Assembly: GCF_000334215.1 (NCBI RefSeq)
Contig: NZ_AMQY01000023.1
Coordinates: forward strand, 310,001 to 374,000
Reading direction: 5' to 3'
Source: Vreelandella jeotgali Hwa
GTDB lineage: Bacteria; Pseudomonadota; Gammaproteobacteria; Pseudomonadales; Halomonadaceae
DNA length: 64,000 bases
The notes beneath the pieces were generated by a model that was not told the DNA's origin, did no database searches, and worked only from the letters and a program-made list of their open reading frames with translations. Positions 32,110-53,698 of the stretch are shown here, in pieces. Position numbers and translations under genes: made by a program. The stretch's first letter is position 1; each line of letters begins with the position of its first letter.

Positions 32110-32135
32110 GCCGTTTTCATCGCCTATAAAACGGC
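32110..32135. terminator. Bidirectional hairpin between convergent genes
   Basis: GCCGTTTT and AAAACGGC pair perfectly (8 bp, ten-base loop), placed where the PLD gene and the VWA gene converge. It overlaps the last codons of the minus-strand gene. Confidence 0.55.
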
Positions 32136-34566: not shown

Positions 34567-34648
34567 GGGCGGGCCTCCTGGCACAGGATTCGAGAAGCGA
34601 GCAGTTCAATGAACGCTCGAACAGCATGGGAGCAGGTTACGCGGCTAC

Positions 34649-34667
34649 TGCGACATTTCGTGTCGCC
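34649..34667. promoter_or_regulatory. WYL-type palindrome, copy 1 (MoxR promoter)
   Basis: TGCGACA-tttcg-TGTCGCC, an inverted repeat with a five-base spacer. It has the same half-site and spacing as the copies at 36545 and 48714. It lies in the 180-bp gap upstream of the MoxR gene. Confidence 0.75.
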
Positions 34668-34745
34668 AAGCGCCTGGTTGCCAAGTGTCTGGTTACAAAG
34701 TCCTAGTCACAAAGCTCCCGGTCGCACAGCAACGGGCAAACGGGT

Positions 34746-36497
34746 TCACGAAACGGGCATCAGCGCCATCTGCACCCATTGCTGCCGAGCGGCCTGGCGC
34801 TGCTCATCGGTGGGATATGTTTCCGGCAGGCGCCAGCTCAGCCAGTCATCCGGCTGGCGGGAAAGGCTCATCAGCAGCGCCCGGGTTTGGCCCGGTGCCA
34901 GCCGCAGCAGGGTCGTCAACTGGCGCTGCCACTGCGCCCAGGGGGTCAGCTCCGCAATGGCGCACAGCACCGCCTGATACTCCGCCACGGTGATGGGTGC
35001 AGCGGAAAGCAGGCGCGGCAGATACCCGGTCAGCCCCTGGTGGGCGCGGTCGAACGATGCCCGGGGCCAGGCATCGCTGCCGTAGAGCGAGCTCAACACC
35101 TCAAGTGTCAGGCGGATCAACACCGGCTGCGCCGCGTCGGCCGTGGCGGCACGCAGCACATACGCCAGGCGATCGTTCCGGCCACGCTGGCAGGTCGCGT
35201 CGCGCAGCGTGGCCGTGTAAGACTTGGCGGCGGCGCTGGACTCAACGCACAGCGCCCACAGCCGCAAATCAGCCAGCATGCCTTCGTCCTGGCGGTCAGC
35301 GGGCAGCTCCCACTGCCACCGGGTATCGGCGCGGTGGTAGTGGACATCCTGCAGTTCGGCCGGCTGGCGCTTGCGGCGGCTGCGGCAGTGCCAGGCGCTC
35401 AGCGTGCGGCGGCACTCCCAGAGATCCGCCGGTGCGATGCCGCTTTCGGCCAGGCGCACCAGCGCGGTCAGGCCATGAAACGCGGCCTGGGCGGTGTAGC
35501 GACGGGACAGCACCTTGAGCACGCCGCCCAGCAGATCGGTTTCGCCGGCCTCGATGCGGCTCAGGGTTTCGCTGAGGGTGGCTTCATCCATGAAAAAGCG
35601 CGCCTGATGCAATAGCGGCGCGGGCACGCTGCCGTAGCAGTCCACGGCCTGGCCATTGGGCAAGGCTACTTCGTCCAGATAGCGGCAGTGGTGCAGCACC
35701 AGCTGGCGCGCCCGGTCCAGTGCCAGGCGTCGTAGCTGCGGCGTATGCAGCTGAACGTCATCCCAGCCGCCGGTCAGCGTCAGCGAAGCCGTGTTGCCGC
35801 GCAGCGTCACCTGGTAGCCGGCCTCTTCATCCTCGGCGGCCGATGAGCCAACGCTGAACAGTGCGCCGGCTCCCTGGACGTCGACCGCGCTCGGCGCCTT
35901 CAGTGCCAGCGATGCCAGCGCGCCGGTGTTATCCAGCCGGACTCGTGGCGGGCCATGAACCACGCAGCGCTCAAGTGGGCCGGCATCGGCCAGCAGCCAC
36001 TCTTCCGTCCCTGTCAGTTCCAGAGCGACGGGCAAAACGGTCGGATTCATCACCACCGCCAGGGAGCATTCGGCCTCTTGCCGCGACGCCAGGTCCGCCG
36101 TGTTGGCGTTCCGGCCCAGCAGTCGCGCACCGTGCCACGCTCGGTGGCGCGCCGCCAGGCGCAGCGTGCCCGCCTGCCAGTCGGCGTCCAGCTCGGCGAT
36201 GGCGCCGTGAATCTTTAGCGTCGGCGGCAGCTCAAGGTGAAACAGATGAATCACGGCGCCCTCCGCCAGCTCGGGCAGATAAATCTCACGCAGGGCCGGC
36301 AGCTGGCTGAGCTGTAAATGCAGAGCGTCCTGCGGGCCGCAGTCGCGCAGGTCGAGCACTTCCAGCCGTGAGTCTTCGTGAACATCCAGCGCGTGCAGTC
36401 CGGGCTCGGCAAGCGTTAGCCGACGGCCCGCATCGGCATGGCCGCAGGGGCCAAAAAGTGCCGTGCCGCCGTTGCTGTCCAGGTTCAGTGTGCCCAT
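34746..36497 (-). CDS. Unrecognised 583-aa protein with leucine-rich N-terminal half
   Basis: No family recognised. No signal peptide or TM is seen, so it is probably cytoplasmic. The first 330 residues consist of short hydrophobic steps at near-regular spacing (LHALDVHEDSRLEVLDLRDC, LSQLPALREIYLPEL, LRRLALDRARQLVLHHCRYL), suggesting a leucine-rich-repeat or beta-solenoid recognition scaffold. The C-terminal 250 residues are helical and Arg/Trp/Gln-rich. The ATG at 36497 has GGGAGG five bases before it. It is co-oriented with the MoxR gene and divergent from the two-AAA gene. It could be the target-recognition part of the system (inference). Confidence 0.75.
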   Translation of the reverse strand: MGTLNLDSNGGTALFGPCGHADAGRRLTLAEPGLHALDVHEDSRLEVLDLRDCGPQDALHLQLSQLPALREIYLPELAEGAVIHLFHLELPPTLKIHGAIAELDADWQAGTLRLAARHRAWHGARLLGRNANTADLASRQEAECSLAVVMNPTVLPVALELTGTEEWLLADAGPLERCVVHGPPRVRLDNTGALASLALKAPSAVDVQGAGALFSVGSSAAEDEEAGYQVTLRGNTASLTLTGGWDDVQLHTPQLRRLALDRARQLVLHHCRYLDEVALPNGQAVDCYGSVPAPLLHQARFFMDEATLSETLSRIEAGETDLLGGVLKVLSRRYTAQAAFHGLTALVRLAESGIAPADLWECRRTLSAWHCRSRRKRQPAELQDVHYHRADTRWQWELPADRQDEGMLADLRLWALCVESSAAAKSYTATLRDATCQRGRNDRLAYVLRAATADAAQPVLIRLTLEVLSSLYGSDAWPRASFDRAHQGLTGYLPRLLSAAPITVAEYQAVLCAIAELTPWAQWQRQLTTLLRLAPGQTRALLMSLSRQPDDWLSWRLPETYPTDEQRQAARQQWVQMALMPVS

Positions 36498-36544
36498 ATA
36501 GCCTCCCGTTGCTGATATCCTCGGCGTCCAGTCTGGGGCCGCTA

Positions 36545-36563
36545 TGCGACACATTGCGTCGCA
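36545..36563. promoter_or_regulatory. WYL-type palindrome, copy 2 (divergent promoter)
   Basis: TGCGACA-cattg-CGTCGCA, one mismatch from a perfect palindrome, with the same spacing as copies 1 and 3. It sits between divergent start codons at 36497 and 36608, so one site can serve both genes. Confidence 0.75.
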
Positions 36564-36607
36564 CGATGGCGATATCATGGGCTTATACCGCAATACAGGA
36601 GACGGCC

Positions 36608-38734
36608 ATGCAGTGGGGACAGATCATCGATATCAACACGGCGCCTGACAGCGAAGAGCCGCATAGTGCCGAGGAGCGCCTGTTTGCCCAGCTGACCTGT
36701 GTGCGCCTGGTGATATTTCTGGGCAGGAACAGCACGCTCGACGATGACGACTGGCACAACCTCCTGGCCTGGCTGGACATGCCCGTGCCCGAGGAAATCG
36801 CCGGCAGCCGCCGCCACGAGGACTACGCACCGCTGCTGAAACGCTGGTGGCGCGAGACGACCGCCGAGCTGTCGCCCGCCGAACCGATACGCTGCACCCT
36901 GGTCACTTTCTGCGAGCATCTGTCTGACCTGCTGCGGCTCGGCCCGCTGGAGCAATACCTGCTGACGCTGGCCTGGCTATGGCTGCGCCACCCGCAGATG
37001 AACCCGATTCTGGCCTGCGTGGAAGAAACCCGCGCCAAAAAACTCCTGGCGCAGATGACCGGCTACGGCAACGACGAGCTCGAACACTGCCTGCACGAAC
37101 GCAGCCGCCTGAAGCTGCTCGGCCTGCTGCGTGGCCAGCGCAGCAACAACACCTTCACGCTGCTGGACATGGACGACGTGCTCTCCGCCGGCCCGCTGCT
37201 GCGCGGCCTGGCGCCGCTGATCAATCACGATGCCGCGACGCTGTCTTCCCGGGGGCTGCGCGAACACCTGGCCCGGCACCTGATGAGCCTCTGCCCCCGG
37301 GAGCCTGTTGCCCACTTTGGCCTGGCCGATTTTGATGCGGTCCCCCTGCGTCAGCTGGCGGTGGATTACCTGCAAAAGGCGCTGAACCACCGCCAGCAAG
37401 GCGCCAATGTGCTGATTCACGGCGCGCCCGGTGTGGGCAAGACCGAGCTGGTCAAGGCGCTGGCCGCCCAGCTGAACGTCCCGCTTTACGGCGTGCCGGT
37501 GGTGGACAAGGACAACGAGGTGCTGACCCCGAGCAAACGCCTGAGCCGCTTTCAGGTCGTCCAGCAACTCATCGACCACCAGGCCGCGCTGGTGCTGTTT
37601 GACGAGATCGAAGACGTCATGCACGACGAAGACGCCCTGCCCAAGGGCTGGATGAACCAGCTGCTGGAACAGAACACGGCGCCGGGCATCTGGGTCAGCA
37701 ATAGCGTGGACTGGCTCGACCCGGCCTATCTGCGCCGCTTTGACCTGATTATTGAAGTGCAGGCCCAGACCGGCCAGCAGGCCCGGGCGCACTATCGCCA
37801 CCTGCTGCAAACGCTGCCGGTGACGCCCGACGGACGCCGCCAGCTGGCCGCCCAGCCGTGGATGACCCCGGCGACGGCTCAGCAGCTGTGCCGCCTGGGC
37901 ACGCTGTTCAATCCGCGCACGCCCCAGCGCAACGAACAGCACATCGATACCTTGATGAGCCACCGCCTGAATGCCCTGGGCGAAACCCACAGCGACGCCA
38001 TCGCCGCGCCTTCCGCGCCCGGCGGGCCCGCCATGCCCGACTATCGGCTTGAATGGCTGCATACCCGCCCGGGGCTGGAGAGCATTGTCGCGCGGCTTAC
38101 CCGCCGCCAGCGCGGGCGCCTCTGCCTACACGGTCTGCCCGGCAGCGGCAAGACGGCGCTGGCCCAACACCTGGCCGAACGCCTCGACCGCGAGCTGGTC
38201 ACCGCCCACGCCAGCAGCCTGATGGATAAATACGTCGGCGGCACCGAGGAAAAACTGGCGGCGCTGTTCCAGCAGGCCCGCCAACAAAACGCCGTGCTTC
38301 TGCTCGACGAGGTGGATACGCTACTGATGCAGCGCGACAACGGCATGCAAAGCTGGGAAATTTCCCACACCAACGAGCTGCTAGTGCAGATCGAAAACTT
38401 CGACGGCATTCTGCTGGCCACCACCAACCGCGTGGATAGCCTCGACCGCGCGGTGATGCGCCGCTTTGACCTCAAGGTCGAGTTCCTGCCGCTGCCCCCG
38501 GCGCCGCTGCGCGACCTACTCAAGGCCGTGCTGCCCGAACGCGATCACTCTCGCCTGGCGGCCCTGCCGGATGCCCAACTGGACCGCCGCCGCGTCACCC
38601 CGGGCAACGTCCGCACCGCGCTGGACCAGCTCGACCTGCGCGGCCTGCCCGTGCGCCTGAGTTCCCTGCTCGACGCGCTCATCCACGAAGAACGCGAACA
38701 GCACGGCAACCAGCGGCCCATAGGGTTTGTTTAA
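36608..38734 (+). CDS. Protein with two AAA ATPase domains
   Basis: 708-aa cytoplasmic ATPase. The N-terminal helical region (1-240) is unrecognised. AAA-1 has Walker A GAPGVGKTE (272-280), Walker B LVLFDEIED (329-337) and an Arg finger in LDPAYLRRFDL. AAA-2 has Walker A GLPGSGKTA (509-517), the pore-loop-like KYVGGTEEK, Walker B VLLLDEVDT and an Arg finger in DRAVMRRFDL, as in Vps4/FtsH-like unfoldases. Two intact domains suggest a protein-remodelling machine. It is divergent from the other three genes of the system. The ATG follows GGAGACGG. Confidence 0.9.
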   Translation: MQWGQIIDINTAPDSEEPHSAEERLFAQLTCVRLVIFLGRNSTLDDDDWHNLLAWLDMPVPEEIAGSRRHEDYAPLLKRWWRETTAELSPAEPIRCTLVTFCEHLSDLLRLGPLEQYLLTLAWLWLRHPQMNPILACVEETRAKKLLAQMTGYGNDELEHCLHERSRLKLLGLLRGQRSNNTFTLLDMDDVLSAGPLLRGLAPLINHDAATLSSRGLREHLARHLMSLCPREPVAHFGLADFDAVPLRQLAVDYLQKALNHRQQGANVLIHGAPGVGKTELVKALAAQLNVPLYGVPVVDKDNEVLTPSKRLSRFQVVQQLIDHQAALVLFDEIEDVMHDEDALPKGWMNQLLEQNTAPGIWVSNSVDWLDPAYLRRFDLIIEVQAQTGQQARAHYRHLLQTLPVTPDGRRQLAAQPWMTPATAQQLCRLGTLFNPRTPQRNEQHIDTLMSHRLNALGETHSDAIAAPSAPGGPAMPDYRLEWLHTRPGLESIVARLTRRQRGRLCLHGLPGSGKTALAQHLAERLDRELVTAHASSLMDKYVGGTEEKLAALFQQARQQNAVLLLDEVDTLLMQRDNGMQSWEISHTNELLVQIENFDGILLATTNRVDSLDRAVMRRFDLKVEFLPLPPAPLRDLLKAVLPERDHSRLAALPDAQLDRRRVTPGNVRTALDQLDLRGLPVRLSSLLDALIHEEREQHGNQRPIGFV

Positions 38735-38744
38735 CCCTCATAAC

Positions 38745-38919
38745 TCAAGCTTTTAACTGCTCGACCACCTGGCGGAAGCTGTTGAGCCCGGCCTCCAGGT
38801 TTTCGACGATATCGCTGGCCAGCTCATCCGGCTCCGGCAAATTGTCCAGATCGGTCAGGCTTTTGTCTTTCAGCCAAAAAATAGCTCCAGACACGGGAGA
38901 TAATCGCGGAAGTGCTCAT
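38745..38919 (-). pseudogene. hsdM: hsdM remnant: both ends joined by an internal deletion
   Basis: Only the extreme N- and C-termini of a type I methyltransferase subunit remain. The start MSTSAIISRVWS matches the usual HsdM opening. After about 36 bases the sequence jumps to WLKDKSLTDLDNLPEPDELA and ends FRQVVEQLKA, the usual HsdM C-terminus, now in a different frame. Some 1.4 kb or more has been lost at about 38884-38888. The ATG shares a base with the stop of the AlbA gene (TAATG), showing that this was a coupled operon. Confidence 0.8.
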
Positions 38920-40488
38920 TAATCGGTTTCCTTGAGGGCAAGCAGCTGCCTGCCCAGCGGGGTTAAGCGGTATTTTTGCGTAGGGCTGCGGGGAGAGTCC
39001 GGCTGGGTCATGGCGACCAGCTCGAGCGCCTGCGCAGGCAAGAGATAATTGCGGGTAAACGTCGGCCGGTGGCTTAACCGCAGCGCGTTCATCAGCGCTT
39101 TAGCCCCGAGTTCTTCCGTCTGCAAGACACGCAACAGCCGCATTACTTGATCGGTTACTTGGTCGGTTACTTGATCGGTTACTGGATCGCCGGATTGTGG
39201 AACCGCAGCGGCAGCGCTTGATGGCTTCTCCATGAACCCCGCATGCAGCGGCAGCCGTACCAGCATATAGCTGTGCTCGTCGTCCGCCTCAAATACCGGT
39301 GCGGGCGAGCCGTTGGCGCGCATGGCCCTCAGTATTTTGGGAATGCCGGTGGAGCGGCCTTCGGTCAGCTCCAGCTCCTTGAGAAACTCGCCGATACGGC
39401 GGTTGCGATAGCGGCGGCTGACCGCCCGGCCCGCCTGCAAGTCCTGCAGCCGAATGGAGCGATCCGGCCCGGGGAAGCTCAGCACCACCAGCTCTTCCGG
39501 CGTAATGCGTACCTCAATGGGTTCGCGGATCTCGTAGGAACGGTGATACACCGCATTCACCACGGCCTCTTCAATCGCCGCCAGCGGATAATTCCAGAAG
39601 CGCTCGGCCTCCGGCCGGTCAGGATGTTTTACCACCGCTTCCTGCACATGATGGGCGGCAATGTAGCTGAGCGATTCCCGGGTCATCCGGCCCAGCGGGC
39701 CGCGAAAAATCTTCTCTTCAAAGCGGTCGCCGCCGGCCCCGTCGGGGAAATAGACTACGTCGATTTGGGTTACCGGAAAAAAACCGCTCGGGGTGTTCGT
39801 TGAAAAACAGCAGCCCGACGTTTTTGGGCAACGCCATCTCGGCGGGGCCGCCCACCACGTTCATGCGCCGCCCAAGGGCTTCTCTGTCCAGCTCCCGCGA
39901 TTCGCTCGCCAGGCCGCTTTTGACCTGCTCGAGAAACTCACGCATCAGGTACGGCGAAAGATCCTCCAGGGTTGCCGTCTGCCGGTAGCGGTCGTCAAAG
40001 GGCACGGTGGCGGCCAGGCTCATCAGCTCGCGTTCGTTATCGCCTGCGGCCTTCACCGTGCTGGTGTGTTTGCGCAGGTAATAGGCCCATTCGGCCTTTT
40101 TATCGCTGAGGCTGGTTTTGGCCTTGTAGGGCCGGGTTTCACCGCCGGGGGCCCAAAGCACCAGAATCGTTTTGCCCTGAATATCGTAGGTGGCCGTCAA
40201 GGGGTGGAACGGCGGCGCAATGGCCGAGTGCCCCAGGTTCATCAGCTCTTTTTGTATGGCGTCGATCTGCTCGGGGGCAAGCCCTGCCGGCGGTAGCCGG
40301 GGCTGGCCATTTTGTTCCGCGACACCGATCACCACATAGCCGCCGCCAAGGTTATGAAAGTCGTTGGCGAAGGCGCAGAGCGTGCGCAAAATAGTCTCGG
40401 GGTTCCACCCGGCCTTGTACTCGATGCGCTCGTCTTCCACCGTGCGGCGGTGCAGCAGGTCATCAATGTTGATGGGCAGCTTAGGCAT
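38919..40488 (-). pseudogene. AlbA_2/Schlafen-type ATP-binding protein, frameshifted
   Basis: Companion gene often found inside type I R-M loci; it may modulate the system. From ATG at 40488 the reading frame holds MPKLPINIDDLLHRRTVEDE and the AlbA_2 core (EYKAGWNPETILRTLCAFAN, GGGYVVIGVAE) as far as FFNEHPERFF. There a run of seven T residues (coding strand; positions 39777-39783) shifts the frame. Removing one T restores PVTQIDVVYFPDGAGGDRF and continues through NYPLAAIEEAVVNAVYHRSY (HATPase-like) to the C-terminal winged helix. The repaired protein would have about 522 aa. It carries a VTDQ repeat near residue 410. Confidence 0.82.
39155..39190 (-). repeat. 12-bp in-frame tandem repeat (VTDQ)
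   Basis: Three consecutive 12-bp units of the type GGTTACTTGATC code for VTDQVTDQVTDQV in the AlbA-type gene. The units differ by one base or so. Copy-number change would stay in frame and alter a linker between domains. Confidence 0.7.
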
Positions 40489-41320
40489 GGCGGGCGACAC
40501 TCGTGCGCGACGCCTTGGCGCTGCATGTGGCGGCGGGCTTTTTATTCGCTGCTTTTTTGGCGGCTTGCTCTGCGGCCTGGCGTTCGGCCTTTTCCTGCTT
40601 GATGCGGGCCAGCAGCTCGCTAGCGGGCTTGTCGTTGGCATTTTTTGCCACAAGAAACAGGATATGCCGGGCACTTACCGGCTCCTTGAGCAGTCGATAG
40701 CTGGCGGTAATGGCGGTAAAAGTCTTGCCGGCGCCGGTGGCCATTTGCACCAAGGCACGGGGCCTGTCCTGCTTTAGCGATTCATCCAGGTGGGTAATGG
40801 CGTCGATCTGGCACTGGCGCAGGCCGTCGGTATTCAGCGGCGGCATGGCCTGCAAACGGCCGCGCAGGCTTTGCCTTTGCGCTCTTCATTTGGCAAGCGT
40901 TGCGGGCTGATGGAAATTGAACGCTTCGCGCGAGCGCGGGAAAGGGTCAAGCCCGTCGGTAAAGCGTGTGATTACCCCCGTGCTTTCATACACAAAGCGC
41001 AGTGGCTGACGGTTTGTTATCCACTTGAGAGCGGCATTGGCGTAACCCGACGATTGATCTTCCACGGTGGTGATTTTTTCACCCCAGGTGTCGGGCTTGG
41101 CCTCAATCACGCCAACGGGCTGCTTGTTAACAAAGAGAACGTAATCGGCCGGGCCAACTTCCGTCTGGTATTCGCGCACCGCCACGCCCAGACCGGCAGA
41201 AAAATCGATGCGTTTCTTGTCCTGCACCACCCAGCCTGCTTTTTCCAGCTGGGCATCGATGGCATCGCGGGATGTCTGCTCCGGCGTCTGGTTGGCCATG
41301 GTCATTCTTCCCTGAAGCAA
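40481..41320 (-). pseudogene. hsdR: hsdR remnant fused to the hsdS 3' end
   Basis: Begins as the type I restriction subunit: MANQTPEQTSRDAIDAQLEK with the N-terminal nuclease region (IDFSAGLGVAVREYQTEVG, VGVIEAKPDT). An in-frame TGA at 40886-40888 interrupts it. The same frame resumes with LQAMPPLNTDGLRQCQIDAI and the helicase Walker A ATGAGKTFTAI. After RHILFLV the sequence changes to NDKPASELLARIKQEKAE, which is the usual C-terminus of the specificity subunit HsdS. So the rest of hsdR and most of hsdS have been deleted. The end overlaps the AlbA gene start by eight bases. Confidence 0.8.
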
Positions 41321-41584
41321 AACGTGTACACGGTGCGACTATCGCGCAGGTTATCTTCCCCGCTTTATATACCAAAATAAAGCCACGGGCGGGATAAAAG
41401 CCGCTCCCACTTGCATACAGCCGTTTCGGTGCAGAATCAGGGTTGTGCCAGGCAGTTCTCCACCGGGTTGAACCCCTCTGGCGGATACGTCACCCTTTCT
41501 GCATCATGTCGGCGTTTTGTGTATGAATCGGCTGAATGGCCATCGCCGAGAAAACGCCATCCTTCATTCGACAAGAGCAGCGTA
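41321..41584. other. Divergent spacer between hsdR remnant and OmpA gene
   Basis: 264 bp. A half-site TGCGAC lies at about 41335, but the second half of the WYL palindrome is missing. No other motif was recognised. Confidence 0.4.
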
Positions 41585-42031
41585 ATGCAAAAACCGATGC
41601 GTGGCTGGGGCAAACGCCTGTCAGGGCTATTGATTCTGGCAGTGACCGCGGGCGCCTCACTGCTGTTCAACAGCATGGGGCAGGCGGAGCAACCAGCGGT
41701 TTATCACCTGGATTTTCGCCGTGGCGTCCAGCCGGGTGAGGGTGCCGACACCGAGCTGGCCCGGATCGTGCGCGACGCGGTAGCGCGTGACCAGGCGGCG
41801 ATTATTGTCACCGGCCATACCGGCACTCTGGGCGATACCCAGGCCAACCAGGCGCTGTCGGCGCGGCGTGCCCAGGTGATCGAGCAGCGCCTGACCGACG
41901 AAGGCGTGGACGCCGACCGCATTACCACCGGGGGTGTGGCCGGCGCCGAGCCGCTGGAGCGCCGCGATGACGAGAGCGACCGGGCCTATCAGCGCCGGCT
42001 TGCGCGGGTAGACGTGACGGTTCGCCCCTGA
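41585..42031 (+). CDS. OmpA-family peptidoglycan-associated protein
   Basis: 148-aa envelope protein. The N-terminal hydrophobic segment (residues 12-28) is a signal or anchor. It is followed by an OmpA-C-like domain: YHLDFRRGVQPGEGADTELARIV, IIVTGHTGTLGD and LSARRAQVIEQRL. The Arg near the end (LARVDVTV) fits peptidoglycan binding. The ribosome site is modest. It is the first gene of a six-gene run through telA and is 42 bp from the next start. Confidence 0.85.
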   Translation: MQKPMRGWGKRLSGLLILAVTAGASLLFNSMGQAEQPAVYHLDFRRGVQPGEGADTELARIVRDAVARDQAAIIVTGHTGTLGDTQANQALSARRAQVIEQRLTDEGVDADRITTGGVAGAEPLERRDDESDRAYQRRLARVDVTVRP

Positions 42032-42073
42032 CCGATGCCCTTCCCCCAACGACCAACGACGAGGATGCGAGCC

Positions 42074-43822
42074 ATGTTCGCCACACGACCCCTGACGGTG
42101 CTGGTCAACCTGCTGGTGGCAGGCACCGCCCTGGTTGCCGGCCCGGCGGCGGCAGCCGATGATGCCAAAGCCAACAACAAGCCTCTGGCGGACAGCCTGT
42201 CGCCGCGGGTGGAAGCCTGCCGCAGTGAAGACTCGCTTACCGTGCCGCTGCGGACATCGGGCGTTGATGTCGTGCCGCTGGCGGCAAACGGCTATGCCCT
42301 TGAGACTCAGGACGACAGTCCCTTTGCCGACGCGGGGCTGGACGTCACCCTGGTGCCGGAAAACGACATCGCCCGCCAGGTGCAGGATTACCTCTCATGC
42401 GACATGCCGATCATGCGCGGCACCCAGGGCATGATCAACGCCGTGGCCGATCTCACCGAGAACGACGAACGCACCCGGGTGGTGGGGCTTTACCAGCACG
42501 GCTTTTCCAACGGCGGCGATGCCCTGGTCGTGCGCCCCGGGATTGATAACCCGGCAGATCTGTCCGGCGCCACCCTCGTCACCCAGGCGCAGGGGCCGCA
42601 TCTGTCGTACATGAACCGTATTCTGGCCGATGCCCGCAAAACGCTTGAAGACGACGGCGGCACCTGGCAGGCACCGGATATCCGCTACACCGAGGACCTT
42701 CGCGGGCTGGGCGGCGATACCCCGGCCAGCGCCTTTCTCGACGATGCCGATATCGACGCGGCCTTCGTCATCGCGCCCGATGCCCGGGTGCTGACCAGCG
42801 ACGGCACCACCGGCACCGGCGCAGAGGGCTCGGTCAAGGGGGCGCAAACCCTGCTCTCCACCCGGTCAGCCAACCGCGTGATCTCCGAGGTCTACGTGGT
42901 GCGCGCGGACTACCTTGAAGCCAATCCCGACCAGGTGCGGCGTTTCGTCGATACTCTGTTCAGCACCGAGGAAAGCGTACGCGAGGACGTGGTCAAGCAA
43001 ATCATCGACTGGGGCGCCGTGGGTCAATATCTGCTCGACGACGCCGGCGCGACCCAGGCCGCCGAGCAGATGTGGGGCGACGTGGAAACCGCCGGCCTCC
43101 AGGGCAACATCGACTGGGCCAACCCTGACAAGCCGCGTTCGTGGAAGTCGATCAACGACGAGATTCAGAGCGGTCTGGTACGCCGCAACCTGATGCAAAG
43201 CGCCTACTCGCTCAAGCTGGCCGACCTGGACTACGCCAGCCTCGGCGATGACCTTTTCGACCAGCGCCGTGCCAGCCTGCCCGGCTTTGACAGCGACAAG
43301 ACCACCCAGGTGGTCGAGGATCTGAACGAGTCCGGCGATCTGGATCAAAAAGCATTGATCGACTTCGACATCCACTTCAAGCCCAACCAGACCGCCTTCC
43401 CGCCGGCTGAATACCGCCAGCAGTTCGAGCGCGTGGCCGAGCTGGCCTCAACCTACGGCGGCGCGGTAATCAGCGTGGAGGGGCACTCCGACCCGCTCAA
43501 CTACCTGCGGCAAAAGCACGACGGCGCCAGCCAGAGCAAACTGCGCTCGATCCGCCAGGCCACGCGCAACCTGTCGATGAACCGCGCGATTGCCGTGCGC
43601 GATGCGGTCATGGCGTTTGCCGACGACCAGGGCGAGGCGATGGATGAAAGCCAGTTCGTGACCCTGGGGCACGGCATCTCCGAACCCAAAACCGGCATGT
43701 GCGGCGGCGATCCCTGCCCGCCGGACACCGAGGCGGAATGGCTGTCCAACATGCGCGTCACCTTCCGCATGGTGAACGTCGAAGCCGAGGCCTCGTCGTT
43801 CACGCCGGCCAATTCCTGGTAA
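42074..43822 (+). CDS. Periplasmic substrate-binding protein fused to OmpA domain
   Basis: 582-aa exported protein: signal peptide to about residue 27 (GPAAAA-DD), then a type-II binding-protein fold like the NrtA/taurine/phosphonate SBPs (residues 45-390: GYALETQDDSPFADAGLDVTLV, ISEVYVVRADYLEANPDQVRRFVDTLFST). The C-terminal OmpA domain (about 430-565) has IDFDIHFKPNQTAFPPAEY, VEGHSDPLNYL and MNRAIAVRDAV. So a ligand sensor is tethered to peptidoglycan. There is no transporter gene nearby, which points to sensing rather than import. A start at 42065 is possible. Confidence 0.85.
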   Translation: MFATRPLTVLVNLLVAGTALVAGPAAAADDAKANNKPLADSLSPRVEACRSEDSLTVPLRTSGVDVVPLAANGYALETQDDSPFADAGLDVTLVPENDIARQVQDYLSCDMPIMRGTQGMINAVADLTENDERTRVVGLYQHGFSNGGDALVVRPGIDNPADLSGATLVTQAQGPHLSYMNRILADARKTLEDDGGTWQAPDIRYTEDLRGLGGDTPASAFLDDADIDAAFVIAPDARVLTSDGTTGTGAEGSVKGAQTLLSTRSANRVISEVYVVRADYLEANPDQVRRFVDTLFSTEESVREDVVKQIIDWGAVGQYLLDDAGATQAAEQMWGDVETAGLQGNIDWANPDKPRSWKSINDEIQSGLVRRNLMQSAYSLKLADLDYASLGDDLFDQRRASLPGFDSDKTTQVVEDLNESGDLDQKALIDFDIHFKPNQTAFPPAEYRQQFERVAELASTYGGAVISVEGHSDPLNYLRQKHDGASQSKLRSIRQATRNLSMNRAIAVRDAVMAFADDQGEAMDESQFVTLGHGISEPKTGMCGGDPCPPDTEAEWLSNMRVTFRMVNVEAEASSFTPANSW

Positions 43823-43837
43823 GCGGGAGAGTCTGCA

Positions 43838-44611
43838 ATGTATTACCTGATTGCCAGTGCGCTGATCGCGCTCCCGCTGGCGCTGGCCGGCTGTAGCGAC
43901 AGCGACGACACCAACAATCCGACAACCGCCGAGCCGGCGACCGTGAGCGAGGCCGGCCAGGCCGTCTGGCCGCCCGACAACGGCGACGCGCCGGAAACGC
44001 TCGACACTCATCTCACCCGCACCAACTACATGGTGGTGCTGGACATGAGCGGCTCGATGTCCCGGGATAACTGCTCCGGGAGCTACCCCAACAAGGCCGT
44101 GGCCGCGCGTACCGCGCTGGGTGCCTGGCTCGACGGCGTTGGCCGGGAAGACAACCTGGGGCTGGTGGTGTTCGATAATCGCGGCGTCAACGTCACCGTG
44201 CCGCTGGGCCGCCACAACCGCGACCACTTCCGCCAGGCCGTTGACGAGGCCTACCCCAACGGCGGCACGCCGCTTTACGATGCCGTGGAGATGGCGCGCG
44301 GGCAGCTGGCCACCCAGGCCGAAGCCCAGCAGGGCTACGGCACCTACCGCCTGGTGGTGATTACCGACGGTCAGCACAGCGAAGGCCAGAACCCGACGCC
44401 ACAGATCAACGCGATTCTGGAAAACCCGGCCAACCCGGTGGAGATCCACACCATCGGCTTCTGCATCGAACGCTCGGCGCTCAACCAGCCCGGCCGTACG
44501 GCGTATCAGAGCGCCAAAAACCCTGAAGAGCTGGCCGACGGGCTGAACAGTGTGCTGGCCGAATCACAAAGCTTTGACCCGATCAAGGAGTTCCAGGCCG
44601 ATGACGACTGA
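43838..44611 (+). CDS. VWA-domain lipoprotein
   Basis: 257-aa lipoprotein. The lipobox LALAGC puts the modified Cys at residue 19. A low-complexity linker (residues 20-60) precedes a VWA domain with the MIDAS DMSGSMS (about residue 69), the conserved Thr in GGTPLYDAVEMA, and Asp in VVITDGQHSEG. All metal-site elements look intact, so it may bind a protein ligand through Mg2+ at the membrane surface. It overlaps the next gene by 11 bases. Confidence 0.9.
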   Translation: MYYLIASALIALPLALAGCSDSDDTNNPTTAEPATVSEAGQAVWPPDNGDAPETLDTHLTRTNYMVVLDMSGSMSRDNCSGSYPNKAVAARTALGAWLDGVGREDNLGLVVFDNRGVNVTVPLGRHNRDHFRQAVDEAYPNGGTPLYDAVEMARGQLATQAEAQQGYGTYRLVVITDGQHSEGQNPTPQINAILENPANPVEIHTIGFCIERSALNQPGRTAYQSAKNPEELADGLNSVLAESQSFDPIKEFQADDD

Positions 44612-45500
44612 TACCCATCGCCGCCTCAACGGCGGCTGTAAAACGGCGCTGGGCACCGGCCTGCTGGCGCTGGCGCTGACTGCCCCCACCGCCGGTGCCC
44701 GTTCGGCCGATCCTGACCTGACCATCGGCTGGACCGCCTGGGACGATGCCGAAGTGGTGTCCAAACTTGCCACCCTCATCCTCGGCCAGGGCATGGGCTA
44801 CGATGTCGAGCTCACCCTGGCGGATATCTCCGTGCAGTATCGCGGCGTCGCCGACGGCGATCTCGACGCCATGCTGATGTCCTGGCAGCCACTCACCCAT
44901 GAATCGTATCTGGAGCGCTACGGCGACCGCACGGTGGATCTGGGGCCGATTTACGAAGGCGCCAACCTAGGGCTGGTGGTGCCGGATTACATTCCCGAGT
45001 CCGAGGTTTCCGAGATTGGCGACCTGGCCAACCCCGACGTGCGCGACAAACTGGACGGCAGGATTCAGGGCATCGAGCCCAACGCCGGCATCATGTCGCT
45101 TACCAACAAGGCCATGACGGCGTATGACCTGGACTACGAACTGCTGACCGGCACCGGGCCGAAAATGACGCAGCAGATCGGCCAGGCCACCGAGGACGAC
45201 AGCTGGTTTGTGGCCACGGGCTGGCGCCCGCACTGGATGTTTGCCACCTATGGCCTGCGCTACCTGGATGATCCCGATAACGTCTACGGCGACGCCGAAT
45301 CCGTGCACGCCGTGGTACGCCAGGGGCTGGAAGACGACTACCCCGATGCCGTGGCATTCCTGCGCCGCATGCAGTTTTCCATCGACGAGCTGGAGTCGCT
45401 GATGGCCCGGGCGCGCGAAACCTCCAACCGCCAGGCCGCCTATGAGTGGATCGAAGCTCACCACGACACCATTGCCCGGTGGATGGGGCAGGCGCAATGA
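44601..45500 (+). CDS. Glycine betaine-type substrate-binding protein
   Basis: 299-aa periplasmic binding protein of the OpuAC family: signal peptide to about residue 32 (APTAGARS-AD), then IGWTAWDDAEVVSKLATLIL, DAMLMSWQPLTHESYLERYG, ATGWRPHWMFATYGLRYL. The aromatic residues for a quaternary-amine site are present. It is a paralogue of the protein at 27509. The start overlaps the VWA gene, and the stop overlaps the XpaC gene start. There is again no permease or ATPase gene, so it is probably a sensor part of the TelA cluster. Confidence 0.88.
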   Translation: MTTDTHRRLNGGCKTALGTGLLALALTAPTAGARSADPDLTIGWTAWDDAEVVSKLATLILGQGMGYDVELTLADISVQYRGVADGDLDAMLMSWQPLTHESYLERYGDRTVDLGPIYEGANLGLVVPDYIPESEVSEIGDLANPDVRDKLDGRIQGIEPNAGIMSLTNKAMTAYDLDYELLTGTGPKMTQQIGQATEDDSWFVATGWRPHWMFATYGLRYLDDPDNVYGDAESVHAVVRQGLEDDYPDAVAFLRRMQFSIDELESLMARARETSNRQAAYEWIEAHHDTIARWMGQAQ

Positions 45501-46147
45501 GCCAGGCACGCTCGGCTTTGGGTATCAGCGAGACCGCACGCTCGCTGCTGGCCGGCGCCGTGGCGTCGGCCACCTACCTGGCGGCGCTCCATGGGCTGAC
45601 CATGCCCGCCTGGCAGCCGGCGTACGCGCTGACGCTGGCGCTGGGCAGCTTTGTTGGCGTCAGCCTGCTGCTGCCGCGACGGGCATCGCTGACCGAACAG
45701 CTGTCGACCCTGAACGACGACTGGGATGGCGATGCCTCCGGCGCGGCCGACGTGATCGCTACCTGCCGGGCGCGTATCGAGCGCCTCAGAGCCGCCGGCG
45801 AGTCCCTCGATGGCACGCTGCGCGAACGCACCGACGGCGTGATCAGCGGGGCGGAGCGTATCGTTGATGGCTTTGTCGAGGACCCGCGCGACATCCGCCA
45901 CTCCGCCACCTTCGAGCGCTACCTGGGCGCTGCCGCCGATATCGCCGAAAAATGCGCCGGTCTCGACGACAAGACCGACAGCGACGCCGTCCAGGCGGTG
46001 CTGACCCGCAGCGACAACGCCCTGAGCGATATCGAAACGGCCTTCGGGCGCCAGTACGAGCGCAACCTGAGCAACGACATTCTGGACCTGGACGTCGACC
46101 TGGACGTCCTGACCCAAACCATCAAAAGCGAGGAACCACGCCCATGA
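45497..46147 (+). CDS. XpaC-like (halogen hydrolase family) membrane protein
   Basis: 216-aa protein with two close TM helices (about residues 15-33 and 42-60) and a helical cytoplasmic C-terminal region (LTEQLSTLNDDWDGDASGAA...LDLDVDLDVLTQTI). It matches the architecture of XpaC-type proteins that are encoded beside telA; the original enzymatic name is not a proven function. It overlaps the preceding and the next gene by four bases each, so it is tightly coupled to telA. Confidence 0.75.
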   Translation: MSQARSALGISETARSLLAGAVASATYLAALHGLTMPAWQPAYALTLALGSFVGVSLLLPRRASLTEQLSTLNDDWDGDASGAADVIATCRARIERLRAAGESLDGTLRERTDGVISGAERIVDGFVEDPRDIRHSATFERYLGAAADIAEKCAGLDDKTDSDAVQAVLTRSDNALSDIETAFGRQYERNLSNDILDLDVDLDVLTQTIKSEEPRP

Positions 46148-47286
46148 ACGCAACAACACAGAACGTGGAAGATCCCGCCGGCACCGTGCTCAAGGACGTC
46201 AGCGAAGCGGGCGCCGGGGTGCTGGCCGAATCCGGTGACGGCAAGCAGCTGGCCGACCTCCCCGACGCCGAGCGCCAGCAGGTAGAAACGCTGATGGCCG
46301 AGATCGAAGTGGGCAACAGCCAGTCGATCATCGGCTTTGGTGCCGCCGCCCAGCGCGAGGTGACTCAGGTATCGGAAAACATGCTCGAAGGCGTGCGCAA
46401 CAAGGACACCGGCAAGGCCGGCGAAGCACTCAACGACATGACCGCCGGACTCCGCGGGCTGGATACCCAGGAGCTCAAGGACGGCAAATCACCGGGCTGG
46501 TTCAAGCGACTGTTCGGCGCCGTGGCGCCCATCACCAAATTCATCCAGCAGTATGAAAGCGTCAAATCGCAGATCGAGTCCATCGTCCGCCAGCTGGAAG
46601 AGCACAAGCACGCGCTGCTCAAGGACGTCACCATGCTCGACCGGCTGTACAACACCACCCTGGACTACTTCCGCGATCTGGAGTTTTACATCGAGGCCGG
46701 CGAGCTGAAAATCGCTGATATCGACGCCCACGCGATTCCCGACGCCAGGGCTGAAGCCGAGCAAAGCGACGATGCCATCAAGGCCCAGCAGCTACGCGAC
46801 ATGCAGACCACGCGCGAAGACCTGGAGCGCCGGGTACACGACCTCAAGCTCACGCGGCAGGTCGTCATGCAGTCGCTGCCCTCCATCCGCATGACCCAGG
46901 AGCTGGACAAGAGCCTGGTCAACAAGATCCAGAGCGCCGTGATCAACACCGTGCCGCTGTGGAAAAACCAGCTCGCCCAGGCCATCACCGTCTACCGCAC
47001 CCGGGAAGCCGCCTCGACGCTTAAAGACGTCTCCGACCTCAACAACGAGATGCTCGAAGCCAACGCCGAAAACCTCCAGAACGCCAACGCCGAAGTCCGC
47101 CAGGAAGTCGAACGCGGCGTCTTTGCCATTGAATCCATCGAAAAGGCCAACCAGAGCCTGATCGACACCATCAACGAATCCATCGACATCGCCGAACAGG
47201 GCCGCAGCAAACGCAGCGAAGCCGAAGGCCGCCTGACCGAATGCGAAAACCAGCTCAAGCAAACCCTCCGGCAGGCAGCGGAGTAA
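46144..47286 (+). CDS. telA: TelA family toxic-anion-resistance protein
   Basis: 380-aa soluble helical protein of the TelA/KlaA family. Seen: the N-terminal helical region, SPGWFKRLFGAVAPITKFIQQY (about 118-140), the central coiled coil VESIVRQLEEHKHALLKDVTMLDRLYN, and the well-conserved RMTQELDKSLVNKIQSAVINTVPLWKNQL (about 250-280). The C-terminal part is rich in Glu, Asn and Ala. TelA-XpaC pairs are linked to tellurite and to cell-envelope stress. It is the last gene of the cluster and is followed by a strong terminator. Confidence 0.93.
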   Translation: MNATTQNVEDPAGTVLKDVSEAGAGVLAESGDGKQLADLPDAERQQVETLMAEIEVGNSQSIIGFGAAAQREVTQVSENMLEGVRNKDTGKAGEALNDMTAGLRGLDTQELKDGKSPGWFKRLFGAVAPITKFIQQYESVKSQIESIVRQLEEHKHALLKDVTMLDRLYNTTLDYFRDLEFYIEAGELKIADIDAHAIPDARAEAEQSDDAIKAQQLRDMQTTREDLERRVHDLKLTRQVVMQSLPSIRMTQELDKSLVNKIQSAVINTVPLWKNQLAQAITVYRTREAASTLKDVSDLNNEMLEANAENLQNANAEVRQEVERGVFAIESIEKANQSLIDTINESIDIAEQGRSKRSEAEGRLTECENQLKQTLRQAAE

Positions 47287-47342
47287 GACCCGGTTGCCGG
47301 CGGCGGGCACCAGGCCATGCCGGTACAGCACCTGTAACGCTC

Positions 47343-47385
47343 AAAAAAGGCCGGGGCAACTTACGTTACCTCGGCCTTTTTTTAT
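47343..47385. terminator. Bidirectional terminator after telA
   Basis: AAAAAAGGCCG...CGGCCTTTTTTT; a GC-rich stem flanked by A and T runs. It serves telA on the plus strand and the membrane coiled-coil gene on the minus strand. Confidence 0.85.
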
Positions 47386-48595
47386 TCTTCTATTTTTCGC
47401 AGACTGGCATATTCATCCTTCACCCATTTTCTGGGATCAACACCCCATATATATTTAAACCCCTTCAGGAACAGCATCAGGAAAACCAACGGCATAATCA
47501 GCGTCTTGAACATAAAGGCTGCCATCAGCCTCAAGAGCGATGGAATAATATCATCCAGGGTGCTGGTAACACGCTCCCATTTTGCCATATCCCGAAATTC
47601 GGATATCTTATTCTTCATCCCTGTTATCCACCCCTCATCTACATTCTTGCCTGCCAAAACATCATTGGTGTTCTCAATATCATTTTTTATTTCCTGACTC
47701 CTTTCTTCCAGATCGCCTATTTTTCTTTAAAACCATCAATTTTCGCCTGTGCCAGGTCCAGGTTTTCTTTTGCTTCATTATATTCATCCTTGCGCGAAAA
47801 AACGTTGAGCTTTTGTATCGTACCCATTTCGTCTTTCATGCTATCCACCCGGCTTCGGATCGGCTGAATCGCTTCTTTTGATGCCTCCAGCGATTGCTGG
47901 TTGTCTACTATATCCTCTTTTACCTGCATACGCTTTTCGGTGAGGTCATCGCGCATCTCGATCAACCCCTGCCTTTTATCCTCGCTCAGCTCATTATCTG
48001 ACGCTGTTTCCTCGGATAATTCATCAGAAGCTGCCTTAACCTCTTCCATATGAGGTGTGATGGCCTTGTCCACAAAAGCCTGATCCACTACCCCATTCAT
48101 CATTATGACCATGATCAGCAAAAAACGAATCAAGGCAAAAAAAGCAAAAAGGCGGAAAACAAAAAATGAATATGCGCCATCCTTGAAATAAATAGAGGCG
48201 ACAAAAACAGCGCCCAAAACAGTCAGAATAACCTTGAAGAAAATAGTAGAAACCGCTTCCACTATTATTTTCTGGATTACCAGGGATGAGATAGCAACTT
48301 TCATTGCTGAGCTATAATCTTCCACCAGATCACTGATGGGCTCCAGGATCTTAAAGGGATGAACATCAAACCCAATGCCCAAGGATGCACTTATGTTAAC
48401 GGATGATGCCAGTGAAACCGCTGCATTAAAAACTCGCGCGGTTCCATAAGCCGCAAATGCTTGCAGCGTTGAAGCGTCAACATACTCCCTGGAGAGTAAA
48501 TCTATGATACCTGTCCACGACAAAAGTACAACAAAAGCTGCAGCAACGGAAATCGCCAGCCTTCTTTTGTGGCTCATCTCCTTGAGGTCCATCAT
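47382..48595 (-). pseudogene. AT-rich membrane/coiled-coil protein, split by a frameshift
   Basis: No family recognised. The ATG at 48595 (MMDLKEM) has GGAG upstream. The protein has TM1 at residues 10-32, a hydrophobic middle (95-170, three or so helices) and a long coiled coil (180-292: ELSEDKRQGLIEMRDDLTEK). It stops at 47717, just after GFKEK. The reading frame continues after one missing A in a run of five (47720-47724) as IGDLEERSQEIKNDIENTND and ends at 47382 after another TM helix. The repaired length is about 404 aa. GC content is much lower than the flanks, a sign of transfer. Confidence 0.65.
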
Positions 48596-48923
48596 ACCCT
48601 TTTCTCCATTGATACATTGCCATCATTTTTTTCTCTTTCGAAATGCTTGAAGCATCTCTTTGTCAGCTTGAAAAAATATGAGTAAAGAAGCAAGTGATAT
48701 CATACCAATAAAATGCGACAATTAGTGTCGCATTATGCTGTCAGATATTGAGTCTCATTCGATTGCCCAGCTTATCAATCCGCGGTTTTATAAGGGGTAG
48801 CATGGGTATCCGTTGCAGCGGAGACACTTCACGTTACAGCCCATGCCAAGCCAGGGTCGTCGTCTTTTACGCTTCGCGCTAGAGTGAGCACACGTCTACC
48901 TACCGGCCCAACAAGGTGCTTGC
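48596..48923. other. Divergent spacer before the WYL gene
   Basis: 328 bp, AT-rich in its first half. It holds the promoters of the membrane coiled-coil gene and the WYL regulator and the palindrome at 48714. No gene is seen. Confidence 0.5.
48714..48732. promoter_or_regulatory. WYL-type palindrome, copy 3 (WYL promoter)
   Basis: TGCGACA-attag-TGTCGCA, a perfect inverted repeat with a five-base spacer, extended by flanking A/T to a 9-bp stem. It lies about 190 bp before the WYL regulator start. This is the best of the three copies. Confidence 0.8.
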
Positions 48924-49943
48924 ATGTCTGAACTGCGCGACACGCTTTTTCGCTATTTGACCCTGCTGCAGCTGATTCCACGCTATCCCGGGCGTATTGC
49001 CACGCCAGTATTAAAGGAGAAGCTTGCCGAGCGTGGTTTTCGGATTGACACCCGCTCGCTGCAGCGCGACCTGCGCGATCGCCTTTCGGTGCATTTTCCG
49101 CTGATCTGCGATGATAGCAGCCGGCCTTATCGCTGGTATTTTGACCGCGATTTTCACTGCAATCTGCCGGCGCTTGACGTACCCAGCGCGCTGACGCTGG
49201 TGTTGGCGGAAGAGTATCTGAAGGGGTTGCTGCCGCCGGTGGTGATCGACCAGCTGGCACCGCAATTCCGCGATGCCCGGGGGCTACTGGATGATCTCGC
49301 GCAGAACGGGCTGAGCCGCTGGGCGCGCAAAGTCCGCGCGATCCCCAACGGCAAGGCACTGCTGCCGGCACCGCTGAGCGAGGCGACCTGGCAGACGGTG
49401 TCCGAGGCGCTGCTGGCGCAAGAGGCTATCCGTGTAACGTACCTGTCGCGCAGTGCGGAGAAGCACAGACGTTATACGCTGCATCCGCAGGGGCTGGTCA
49501 GTCGCCATAGCGTGACCTACCTACTGGCAACGGTGAACGATTACAACGACATTCGTCAGTTTGCCATGCACCGCATTGTGGACGTTGAGGGCAGCGATGC
49601 CCCTTGGCGGGAGACCGTCGGATTTGACCTGGATGATTATATTGCTCGGGGTGCCTTTGGCTATCTGCAAAGCCGCGAGCCGGTTCATCTGGTGGCCAAC
49701 ATCTCGCCACAGACCGCCTGGCTGCTCAGCGAGACGCCGCTTTCCCGGCGGCAAACGCTGACGGCGCTCCCTGACAGCGACTGGCAGAGGCTGGAAGCCG
49801 ACATCCCCGACGACCAGCAAACGCTGTGGTGGTTGATGGGCATGGGCGCCAACGTCGACGTACAGGCGCCGGCAAGCTGGCGCCGCGAAATTTACGCCGC
49901 TGCCAGCACTATTGTGGCGCGCGGGCAAGCACCGGACGGTTAG
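48924..49943 (+). CDS. WYL-domain transcriptional regulator
   Basis: 339-aa regulator. The N-terminal winged helix (residues 1-80: LFRYLTLLQLIPRYPGRIAT, RGFRIDTRSLQRDLRDRL) is of the YafY/DeoR-like type. The WYL domain (about 150-215) contains QEAIRVTYLSRSAEKHRRYTLHPQGLVSRHSVTYLLATV, and a WCX-like C-terminus follows. Such proteins (BrxR, CapW and relatives) are repressors of phage-defence genes and may sense nucleic acid. AAGGTG precedes the ATG. Its end overlaps the end of the ligase gene on the other strand by four bases. It probably binds the TGCGACA palindrome. Confidence 0.9.
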   Translation: MSELRDTLFRYLTLLQLIPRYPGRIATPVLKEKLAERGFRIDTRSLQRDLRDRLSVHFPLICDDSSRPYRWYFDRDFHCNLPALDVPSALTLVLAEEYLKGLLPPVVIDQLAPQFRDARGLLDDLAQNGLSRWARKVRAIPNGKALLPAPLSEATWQTVSEALLAQEAIRVTYLSRSAEKHRRYTLHPQGLVSRHSVTYLLATVNDYNDIRQFAMHRIVDVEGSDAPWRETVGFDLDDYIARGAFGYLQSREPVHLVANISPQTAWLLSETPLSRRQTLTALPDSDWQRLEADIPDDQQTLWWLMGMGANVDVQAPASWRREIYAAASTIVARGQAPDG

Positions 49944-51280: not shown

Positions 51281-51657
51281 TACAAACGCTTGACGAAGAT
51301 CCAGTAGGTATCGCCGGAGATGGCTTTCTTCATGTGGACGCGCACTTTGGTAGGGGTCATGCGGTAATCGAAGACGTATTCAAACATCGTGCTCAGGTTG
51401 TCCTGACGCACCCCTTCCTCGAAGCGACCCCGGAACTCCGGGCGATCCGTACAGGGAGCCACTTCGCGGAAGAAGTTTTTGCCGATCACGTCGCTGGAAG
51501 CGCGGCCGGTGATATCACTTTCGGCAGCGTTATAACGCAGGATCTTGCCCTGGGCATCCACCTCGATGGCACCGAAGGCCAAATCATCGAGCTGGTTTTC
51601 CGACATGCTGGACAGCGTGTTTTCAACGTCGTCCGAACCGAATTTTACCATTTCCAT
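51280..51657 (-). CDS. pyp: Photoactive yellow protein
   Basis: 125-aa PAS-fold blue-light receptor, the same length as the Halorhodospira halophila protein and very similar throughout. All key residues are present: Tyr42, Glu46, Thr50 and Arg52 around the chromophore, and Cys69 (in VAPCTD) for the thioester to p-coumaric acid. The core [11 protein letters not shown] and the end [16 protein letters not shown] are typical. AAAGG lies seven bases before the ATG. It is the first gene of a two-gene operon with its chromophore ligase. Confidence 0.96.
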
Positions 51658-52018: not shown

Positions 52019-52200
52019 AATTCCAAACAGTTTTGTAACGCCGCCTCCATTGGCTTTTTCCGGTTTGCCGATTCAGGGAAGATCGTTTTGCAAGGACACC
52101 CCAATACTTCGCCGGGGCAATCATTACCCGTGCTTCAGGCTCTGCATGCCCAAATGCCGACTCCCCTCTGCCGCACCTCCGGTATGTGCGGGGAGCTTTC

Positions 52201-53679: not shown

Positions 53680-53698
53680 ACAGGACGAGCGTTGTATT

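Follow-up and report, generated by a model that had tools for sequence, protein, structure and literature searches.

What is the role of a 19-bp palindrome that recurs in three promoter regions within a single stretch of the Vreelandella jeotgali Hwa genome, and which protein reads it? The stretch analysed here (the window) comprises 64,000 nucleotides, positions 310,001 to 374,000 of contig NZ_AMQY01000023.1, and the palindrome, TGCGACA-N5-TGTCGCA, had been proposed from the sequence alone to link the gene of a WYL-domain regulator with genes for a MoxR ATPase, a VWA protein and an ATPase with two AAA stretches. We consider it likely that the palindrome is a WYL box within a stereotyped promoter, and that the WYL protein activates, through this box, a regulon of genes resembling repair and defence genes that is scattered over the genome, both here and in relatives.

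A palindrome at a fixed distance from a −10 element

As originally described, the palindrome occurs at 34649–34667 and 36545–36563 with one mismatch each and at 48714–48732 without any, and all three copies are intergenic. At up to two mismatches, three copies in 64 kb stand against 0.41 expected, and none of 100 shuffles reached three. The first copy, GGCGACA-N5-TGTCGCA on the minus strand, lies before the genes of a MoxR-like AAA ATPase (33391–34566, minus strand; a weak Pfam AAA match, 23.1 bits for a cut-off of 21.2; start taken at the internal ATG, 34566) and of a protein with a DUF2201_N metallopeptidase-like and a DUF2201 VWA-like domain (32124–33395, minus strand; PF13203, 9e-34; PF09967, 3e-19). 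The second is common to two divergent promoters, those of the two-AAA ATPase of 708 amino acids (aa) (36608–38734, plus strand; PF00004 in two stretches, 1.6e-41) and of a 583-aa protein (34749–36497, minus strand). The third lies between the gene of a 291-aa protein of no family (47720–48592, minus strand; membrane- or coiled-coil-like by reading) and that of the WYL regulator (48924–49943, plus strand), a pair about 10 kb away from the other two units.

Promoters for alignment were chosen only by the presence of a palindrome and of a start codon with a ribosome site: 143 palindrome records (at most two mismatches) gave 96 orientation records that passed the rule for start codon and ribosome site, 75 of them had the start 38–70 bp away, and dropping those at least 70% alike downstream of the box left 53 dissimilar promoters. 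In the alignment, 51 of these have A at column 30 and 52 have T at column 34, and a −10 hexamer, TAnnCT, occupies columns 29–34, nine bases past the palindrome. Together, A30 and T34 occur in 51/53 promoters. The opposite face has both letters at 7/49 sites, a control from which four sites represented in the set by either face were excluded, and sites within open reading frames (ORFs) have them in 1/16 cases; a mixed control, in which real and chance sites are unsorted (loci L105–L133), gave 28 of 72 contexts. This fixed palindrome-to-minus-10 geometry in 53 dissimilar promoters is new here. A −35 element, on the other hand, does not exceed chance over the set (mean best match 2.64/6, vs 2.81 at other upstream anchors); the position expected for it is the centre of the palindrome, and the −10 is left uncovered by the box.

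A matrix built from these promoters gave 200 matches at a score of at least 17, vs one in the reversed sequence (3.9 Mb, both strands), in a scan of the fetched stretches, a set of partly overlapping loci that also contains the training promoters. Within the window, it scores the MoxR promoter at 30.1, with a predicted −10 TAACCT at 34634–34639 (minus strand), nine bases past the palindrome; the two-AAA promoter at 29.1, with TATCAT at 36573–36578 (plus strand); the divergent 583-aa gene at 29.7, with CAGACT at 36530–36535 (minus strand); and the 291-aa gene at 33.5, with TATGAT at 48699–48704 (minus strand). The face of the last box towards the WYL gene reaches 19.2, with CAGATA at the place of the −10. 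Thus, the box originally said to precede the WYL gene does lie between that gene and its neighbour, but its strong face aims at the divergent gene.

In the whole genome (2.85 Mb) we found six palindromes with at most one mismatch, vs one in the reversed control, and 15 with at most two, vs 14, so that the two-mismatch level is by itself uninformative. All six of the former precede genes, and eight of the nine sites with exactly two mismatches lie within mechanically called ORFs; we thus take the strong genomic palindromes as genuine and most of the weak ones as noise. The scan for scattered copies suggested with the original prediction did find additional ones, but the good ones precede genes of related families (a DUF2201_N gene, C1:13901, and a PcfJ gene, C14:289894, start codon uncertain), a 1554-aa ORF of no known family (C14:299416, 55 bp before the ORF, also overlapping a mechanical 71-aa ORF on the opposite strand) and possibly recC (see below). 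With sites on contigs C1, C14 and C23, the idea of a regulon is supported, but the span of 14 kb first given to it is far too small. When the −10 is added to the pattern, four matches with at most one mismatch are found in the genome, all in the window.

Conservation of the box and its association with the WYL gene

Matches of any kind to the WYL protein were found in 24/58 genomes, and full-length relatives in 26 of 82 congeneric genomes, in a patchy distribution and with at most three per genome. These genomes were classed by hand as having a full-length WYL gene (26), fragments (10) or none (46), the last class including two with distant matches only (G021 and G102). Palindromes with at most one mismatch number 68 in the 26 genomes with the full-length gene (control 17; mean 2.6), 12 in the 10 with fragments (control 7) and 32 in the 46 without (control 41; mean 0.7), and their number differs between genomes with and without the gene (p = 3e-5, own genome left out). 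When the complete promoter motif is searched with up to two mismatches, the counts are 149 (control 74), 21 (control 28) and 55 (control 159), respectively, with an association at p = 2e-9; like the preceding p value, this one ignores phylogeny. As the control exceeds the count in WYL-less genomes, it over-estimates the background. At least one full-motif match is present in 26/26 genomes with the gene and in 31/46 without, and single matches therefore mean little.

The box stands before the same genes in relatives, in agreement with the conservation originally predicted. It precedes an operon of a DUF2201_N gene and the WYL gene in 16 of the 20 WYL loci first fetched, commonly at 47 bp from the start codon, and 48 distinct box promoters of this operon are present in the wider set; thus, the regulator usually belongs to its own regulon. 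Among the exceptions are the third WYL gene of genome G002, whose box is altered, and two WYL genes, distant or partial, that no box precedes. Further along come genes for an AIG2-like protein, in 12 of the 20 loci, and for an OGFr_N protein, in 13. The WYL locus of the window lacks a DUF2201_N gene, and a relative of that gene is found on contig C1 with a box of its own. In G002, the changed box, TGCGTCA-N5-TGACGCA, is altered symmetrically and lies beside a WYL paralogue of 53% identity, which is the pattern expected if protein and box change together, seen in this one case.

Relatives of the MoxR gene carry the box in genomes G007, G016 and G027, and those of 53% identity or less (G009, G011, G017) show none within two mismatches. 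For the two-AAA gene, all 15 matches at E ≤ 1e-60 in the 82 congeneric genomes have a box 43–60 bp before the ATG; two-AAA fragments seen in G015, G028 and G007 miss this limit and are not counted among the 15. A relative of the 291-aa protein is encoded near a WYL box in G016. The link first drawn between the WYL gene and the MoxR-VWA and two-AAA genes is thus upheld, both by sites at fixed places in relatives and by the presence of the WYL gene as a predictor of site number.

In G016 the two-AAA gene is broken and the MoxR gene is in two pieces (L254), and in G007 a two-AAA fragment lies beside its box (L253), an intact copy being located elsewhere. A perfect match to box plus −10 was also seen in G025 (L262:8948–8981, G025:C42:195947), a genome in which a PF13280 protein was not found. 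Farther away, three Nitrincola two-AAA genes have a variant box (scores 17–20) and two Ectothiorhodospira loci a box with two mismatches; a dyad search of 10 out-group loci (Zobellella, Oceanimonas, Oceanisphaera, Nitrincola and Ectothiorhodospira) detected, immediately before the WYL gene, no box that combines 6/7 paired bases with a matching −10.

The WYL protein as a candidate activator

No PF13280 protein other than the one encoded at 48924–49943 was found in the genome. Pfam assigns the WYL (PF13280, 3e-15) and WCX (PF25583, 1.2e-10) domains of this protein, and the N-terminal winged helix-turn-helix (wHTH) comes from the structural model and a full-length Foldseek alignment to DriD. Profile searches matched PafBC at 9e-7, the best PDB profile match, and DriD at 2e-4 to 7e-4, and neither BrxR nor CapW appeared at E ≤ 0.01; Foldseek ranked DriD (6e-13) and PafBC (4e-12) ahead of CapW (5e-9) and BrxR (7e-8). 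Residues invariant in 12 homologues include R211 and R217, candidates for the sensing of single-stranded DNA, which line up with the R-x-F/W-x-L-x-R segment found in PafBC and DriD, and R44 and R48, which have the same numbers as the invariant arginines in the recognition helix of PafB (PMC6789036), a likeness by number and not by structural alignment of the helices.

The domain composition, the place of the box over or just below the −35, the constant distance from box to −10 and the poor −35 are those of three WYL activators. DriD of Caulobacter crescentus activates an SOS-independent damage response from a site at a fixed distance to the −10, with a poor −35 and at several unlinked targets (PMC12340889). 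The window protein shares with it a wHTH-WYL-WCX chain of similar length, the placement of the site, a constant distance to the −10, the poor −35 and the unlinked targets; the DriD targets bapE, didA, recJ and dnaG, however, are unlike the gene families found here, and the likeness is one of layout, not of box letters. In the PafBC-dependent P1 or RecA-NDp promoters of mycobacteria, the consensus is tTGTCRgtg-8 nt-TannnT (PMC5656591), and our alignment, with TGTCG from column 13 and TA from column 29, has the same TGTCR-to-TA spacing; two conserved recognition-helix arginines and a large, dispersed regulon are further points in common. PafBC differs in being a heterodimer, of which only PafB reads the site, and that site is not palindromic, whereas the two-fold palindrome here suggests that the window WYL protein acts as a homodimer. 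SiwR of Mycobacterium smegmatis is a single-chain WYL activator with a 19-bp imperfect palindrome upstream of the −10 and a requirement for the −26 region (PMC10693628). The palindrome here has the same length and likewise lies above the −10, but one adjacent operon is described for SiwR, unlike the many dispersed targets of the present box.

We infer from these likenesses that the WYL protein would bind the 19-bp box, which is followed by nine bases and the TAnnCT −10, with no −35. A WYL dimer would sit at the place where sigma4 otherwise reads a −35, and would recruit or remodel the housekeeping RNA polymerase, as do DriD, PafBC and SiwR. Expression of the target genes would stay low in the absence of the ligand and rise jointly once the WYL domain detects it. 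By homology, this ligand may be single-stranded nucleic acid arising from damage or phage attack; single-stranded DNA sensing and a role in damage or phage response are suggested by the homologues and by the kinds of genes in the regulon.

The original prediction had instead likened the protein to BrxR and CapW, the self-regulating repressors of BREX (bacteriophage exclusion) and CBASS (cyclic-oligonucleotide-based antiphage signalling) loci. Such a repressor would cover the −35 region and block the polymerase until a phage-made ligand frees it. BrxR and CapW are WYL proteins with palindromic operators near defence-gene promoters; the BrxR site, its half-sites separated by 5 nt, lies across a −35 (PMC9122589), the box here covers the −35 position, and there are defence-like genes among its targets. 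However, the promoters have no −35 to be blocked, the best match being at chance level, and a repressor has no need of the single exact −10 spacing kept over 53 promoters. CapW sites overlap the −10 (PMC9122588), which here is free, and both proteins are local and autoregulated, in contrast to the dispersed regulon of the present box. Structure and profile searches also place DriD and PafBC ahead. No BREX or CBASS gene was detected among 20 window proteins searched with Pfam and 10 searched with PADLOC; the BREX genes of this genome lie on contig C1. We regard repression of this kind as unlikely, and favour activation because the −10 lies outside the box at a single constant distance and a −35 above chance level is lacking, as in the layout of DriD, PafBC and SiwR.

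A second alternative is that another regulator reads the box, either an unrelated factor or the divergent WYL-like protein (28% identity) encoded between the two-AAA and 583-aa genes in G007 and G016 (L253:10008–10943 and L254:6755–7732), the WYL protein studied here being one target or one of several readers. The divergent protein has the same R-x3-R spacing in the presumed recognition helix and its gene lies between targets, and good boxes persist in genomes without a full-length WYL gene. The window, for its part, has no WYL-like gene between the two-AAA and 583-aa genes, and the genome yielded no second PF13280 protein. The presence of the WYL gene predicts box number across the 82 genomes, 16 of 20 WYL loci have the box at the front of the operon, and the changed paralogue of G002 lies beside a changed box. 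We find a different reader quite improbable. Recurrence of a GC-rich palindrome by chance or composition, for which the equal two-mismatch counts of genome and control and the conserved coding sequence at some such sites (brxB) might speak, is refuted by the six vs one copies at one mismatch, the 15 of 15 two-AAA genes with a box at a fixed place, the fixed −10 and the 200 vs one matrix matches, and has a negligible probability.

Several observations weigh against activation of this regulon by the WYL protein. A repressor, BrxR, likewise occupies a −35 region through half-sites 5 nt apart, so that the position of the box is by itself no proof of activation. In the own genome only the best matches to box plus −10 stand out (21 vs 17 in the control at up to three mismatches), and the perfect box at 48714 has a poor −10 towards the WYL gene. 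The structural model is modest (predicted local distance difference test (pLDDT) score of 74, uncertain domain placement, template modelling (TM) score of about 0.33 to DriD), the DUF2201_N-WYL operon of G019 has no box within two mismatches, and the association p values take no account of phylogeny. Of the 15 two-AAA promoters, seven belong to genomes that lack a full-length WYL gene, four with no match (G018, G025, G035, G070) and three with fragments only (G007, G077, G080). Several of their boxes are still strong, and some such assemblies are in many contigs; in G007 and G016 the divergent WYL-like protein may read the box. Co-occurrence of the two-AAA gene with the full-length WYL gene is weak (8/15, p = 0.049). 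The two-AAA boxes score lower without the full-length gene than with it (26.2 vs 31.4; p = 0.014, 7 and 8 cases), which fits decay after loss of the regulator.

Predicted targets of the box and other genes of the window

Counted as promoters and not as genes, there are 171 distinct matrix sites with a score of at least 16, of which 146 have an ORF assigned and 25 do not. Besides the 48 promoters of the DUF2201_N-WYL operon and the 15 of two-AAA genes, they include seven each for MoxR, a small Cys-Cys protein and PcfJ, six for an ADP-ribosylglycohydrolase, five for the 583-aa family, four for a calcineurin-like phosphoesterase, three for RecC, two for SIR2 (with a third, a weak face, in Nitrincola) and one for an SNF2 helicase with an Eco57I-type methylase next in line. 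Of the 31 clusters with a single member, several are short ORFs or repeat a counted site by its weak opposite face, and some small clusters or singletons are probably spurious.

Second copies of RecBCD are among the targets in relatives. A second recC gene was found only in genomes with a full-length WYL gene (5/26 vs 0/56, p = 0.0024; the two recC matches in each of G006, G032 and G098 are adjacent pieces of one gene). The recC of G085 has a box with a score of 25.0, and in G002 a recC-recB-recD series lies downstream of the WYL gene, in the same direction and with overlapping ends. The sole recC of the own genome has a site 252 bp upstream, with a score of 21.5 (L288:4433–4466, own C23:24432), which overlaps the start of a divergent neighbour gene (560 aa). 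As the housekeeping recC of 13 other genomes (L273–L277, L289–L293 and L297–L299) has no site above a score of 12.3, control of the resident recC rests on this one site.

In the own genome, the regulon would comprise the MoxR-VWA pair, the two-AAA gene with its divergent partner and the gene divergent from the WYL gene, together with the DUF2201_N gene, the PcfJ gene, the 1554-aa ORF and perhaps recC on other contigs. The C1 island that carries the DUF2201_N gene under its box (L005:2611–19001 and L007:1–8316) starts at a tmRNA gene and also encodes an integrase-like ORF (by reading), Fic, a transposase-like protein and the BREX proteins BrxA, BrxB, BrxC, PglZ and BrxL. Within brxB, a near-match to box plus −10 (L007:7215, own C1:31200; L053:5856) recurs in several genomes and probably reflects coding conservation; being coding and present in G060, which lacks a WYL gene, it was excluded from the regulon.

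No defence-system match was obtained with PADLOC for the MoxR, VWA, 583-aa, PcfJ and DUF2201_N proteins or the 1554-aa ORF. The 583-aa protein, predicted to be rich in beta strands in its N half and helical in its C half, has no Pfam, PADLOC or NCBIfam match, and its model (pLDDT 81) has no PDB fold match at E ≤ 0.001; an LRR-like character suggested by reading has no computed support. The two-AAA protein was likewise rejected as IetA of the IetAS system (112.8 bits for an NCBIfam cut-off of 510), the best PADLOC stretch covering the AAA part only. The MoxR-VWA pair resembles the paired MoxR ATPase and VWA protein of the MoxR-VWA-VMAP ternary conflict systems, but no VMAP or effector domain was found here and the VWA partner carries DUF2201_N; DUF2201 is not named in the main text of the paper on these systems (PMC7159879). 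Membership was rejected, since neither the 583-aa neighbour nor two homologues has a Pfam match and no VMAP component was found.

The window holds further gene groups. Directly beside the WYL gene, at 49940–51657 (minus strand), a 125-aa PAS protein adjoins an AMP-binding enzyme (both by Pfam), which look like a photoactive yellow protein with its chromophore-activating ligase. Upstream, at 41411–47286 (plus strand), is a row of genes for OmpA, an NMT1-like and OmpA-like fusion (OmpA below cut-off), a VWA protein, an OpuAC binding protein, Halogen_Hydrol and TelA. Genes for SrfB (PF07520) and Virul_Fac (PF10139) lie within 52186–62586 (plus strand), preceded by one unnamed gene and followed by another and by a VWA protein gene, presumably an Srf-type operon.

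We rate this as a probable regulon of the WYL-activator kind with unusual, largely uncharacterised targets. A broader proposal, which as a whole we lean slightly against, is that of an SOS-independent, nucleic-acid-triggered regulon of halophilic gammaproteobacteria, in which one WYL activator would drive a distributed defence-and-repair set (a second RecBCD, SIR2, ADP-ribosylglycohydrolase, PcfJ, DUF2201_N, MoxR-VWA and two-AAA proteins) through a WYL box in place of the −35; the TGTCR core and spacing shared with PafBC would then imply one ancestral mode of WYL activation across phyla. Among the papers listed, none announces such a regulon in its title or the start of its abstract (searched for WYL, DUF2201, PcfJ, MoxR, RecBCD, Halomonas and gammaproteobacterial WYL activators; few subscription papers were covered). 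The rule TGCGACA-N5-TGTCGCA-N9-TAnnCT locates candidate co-regulated genes anywhere in a genome, and would place a set of uncharacterised genes in the context of a response to damage or phage. It would also open the replacement of the −35 by WYL activators to testing in a gammaproteobacterial group that is easily grown, and it cautions against taking every WYL regulator encoded near defence genes for a repressor.

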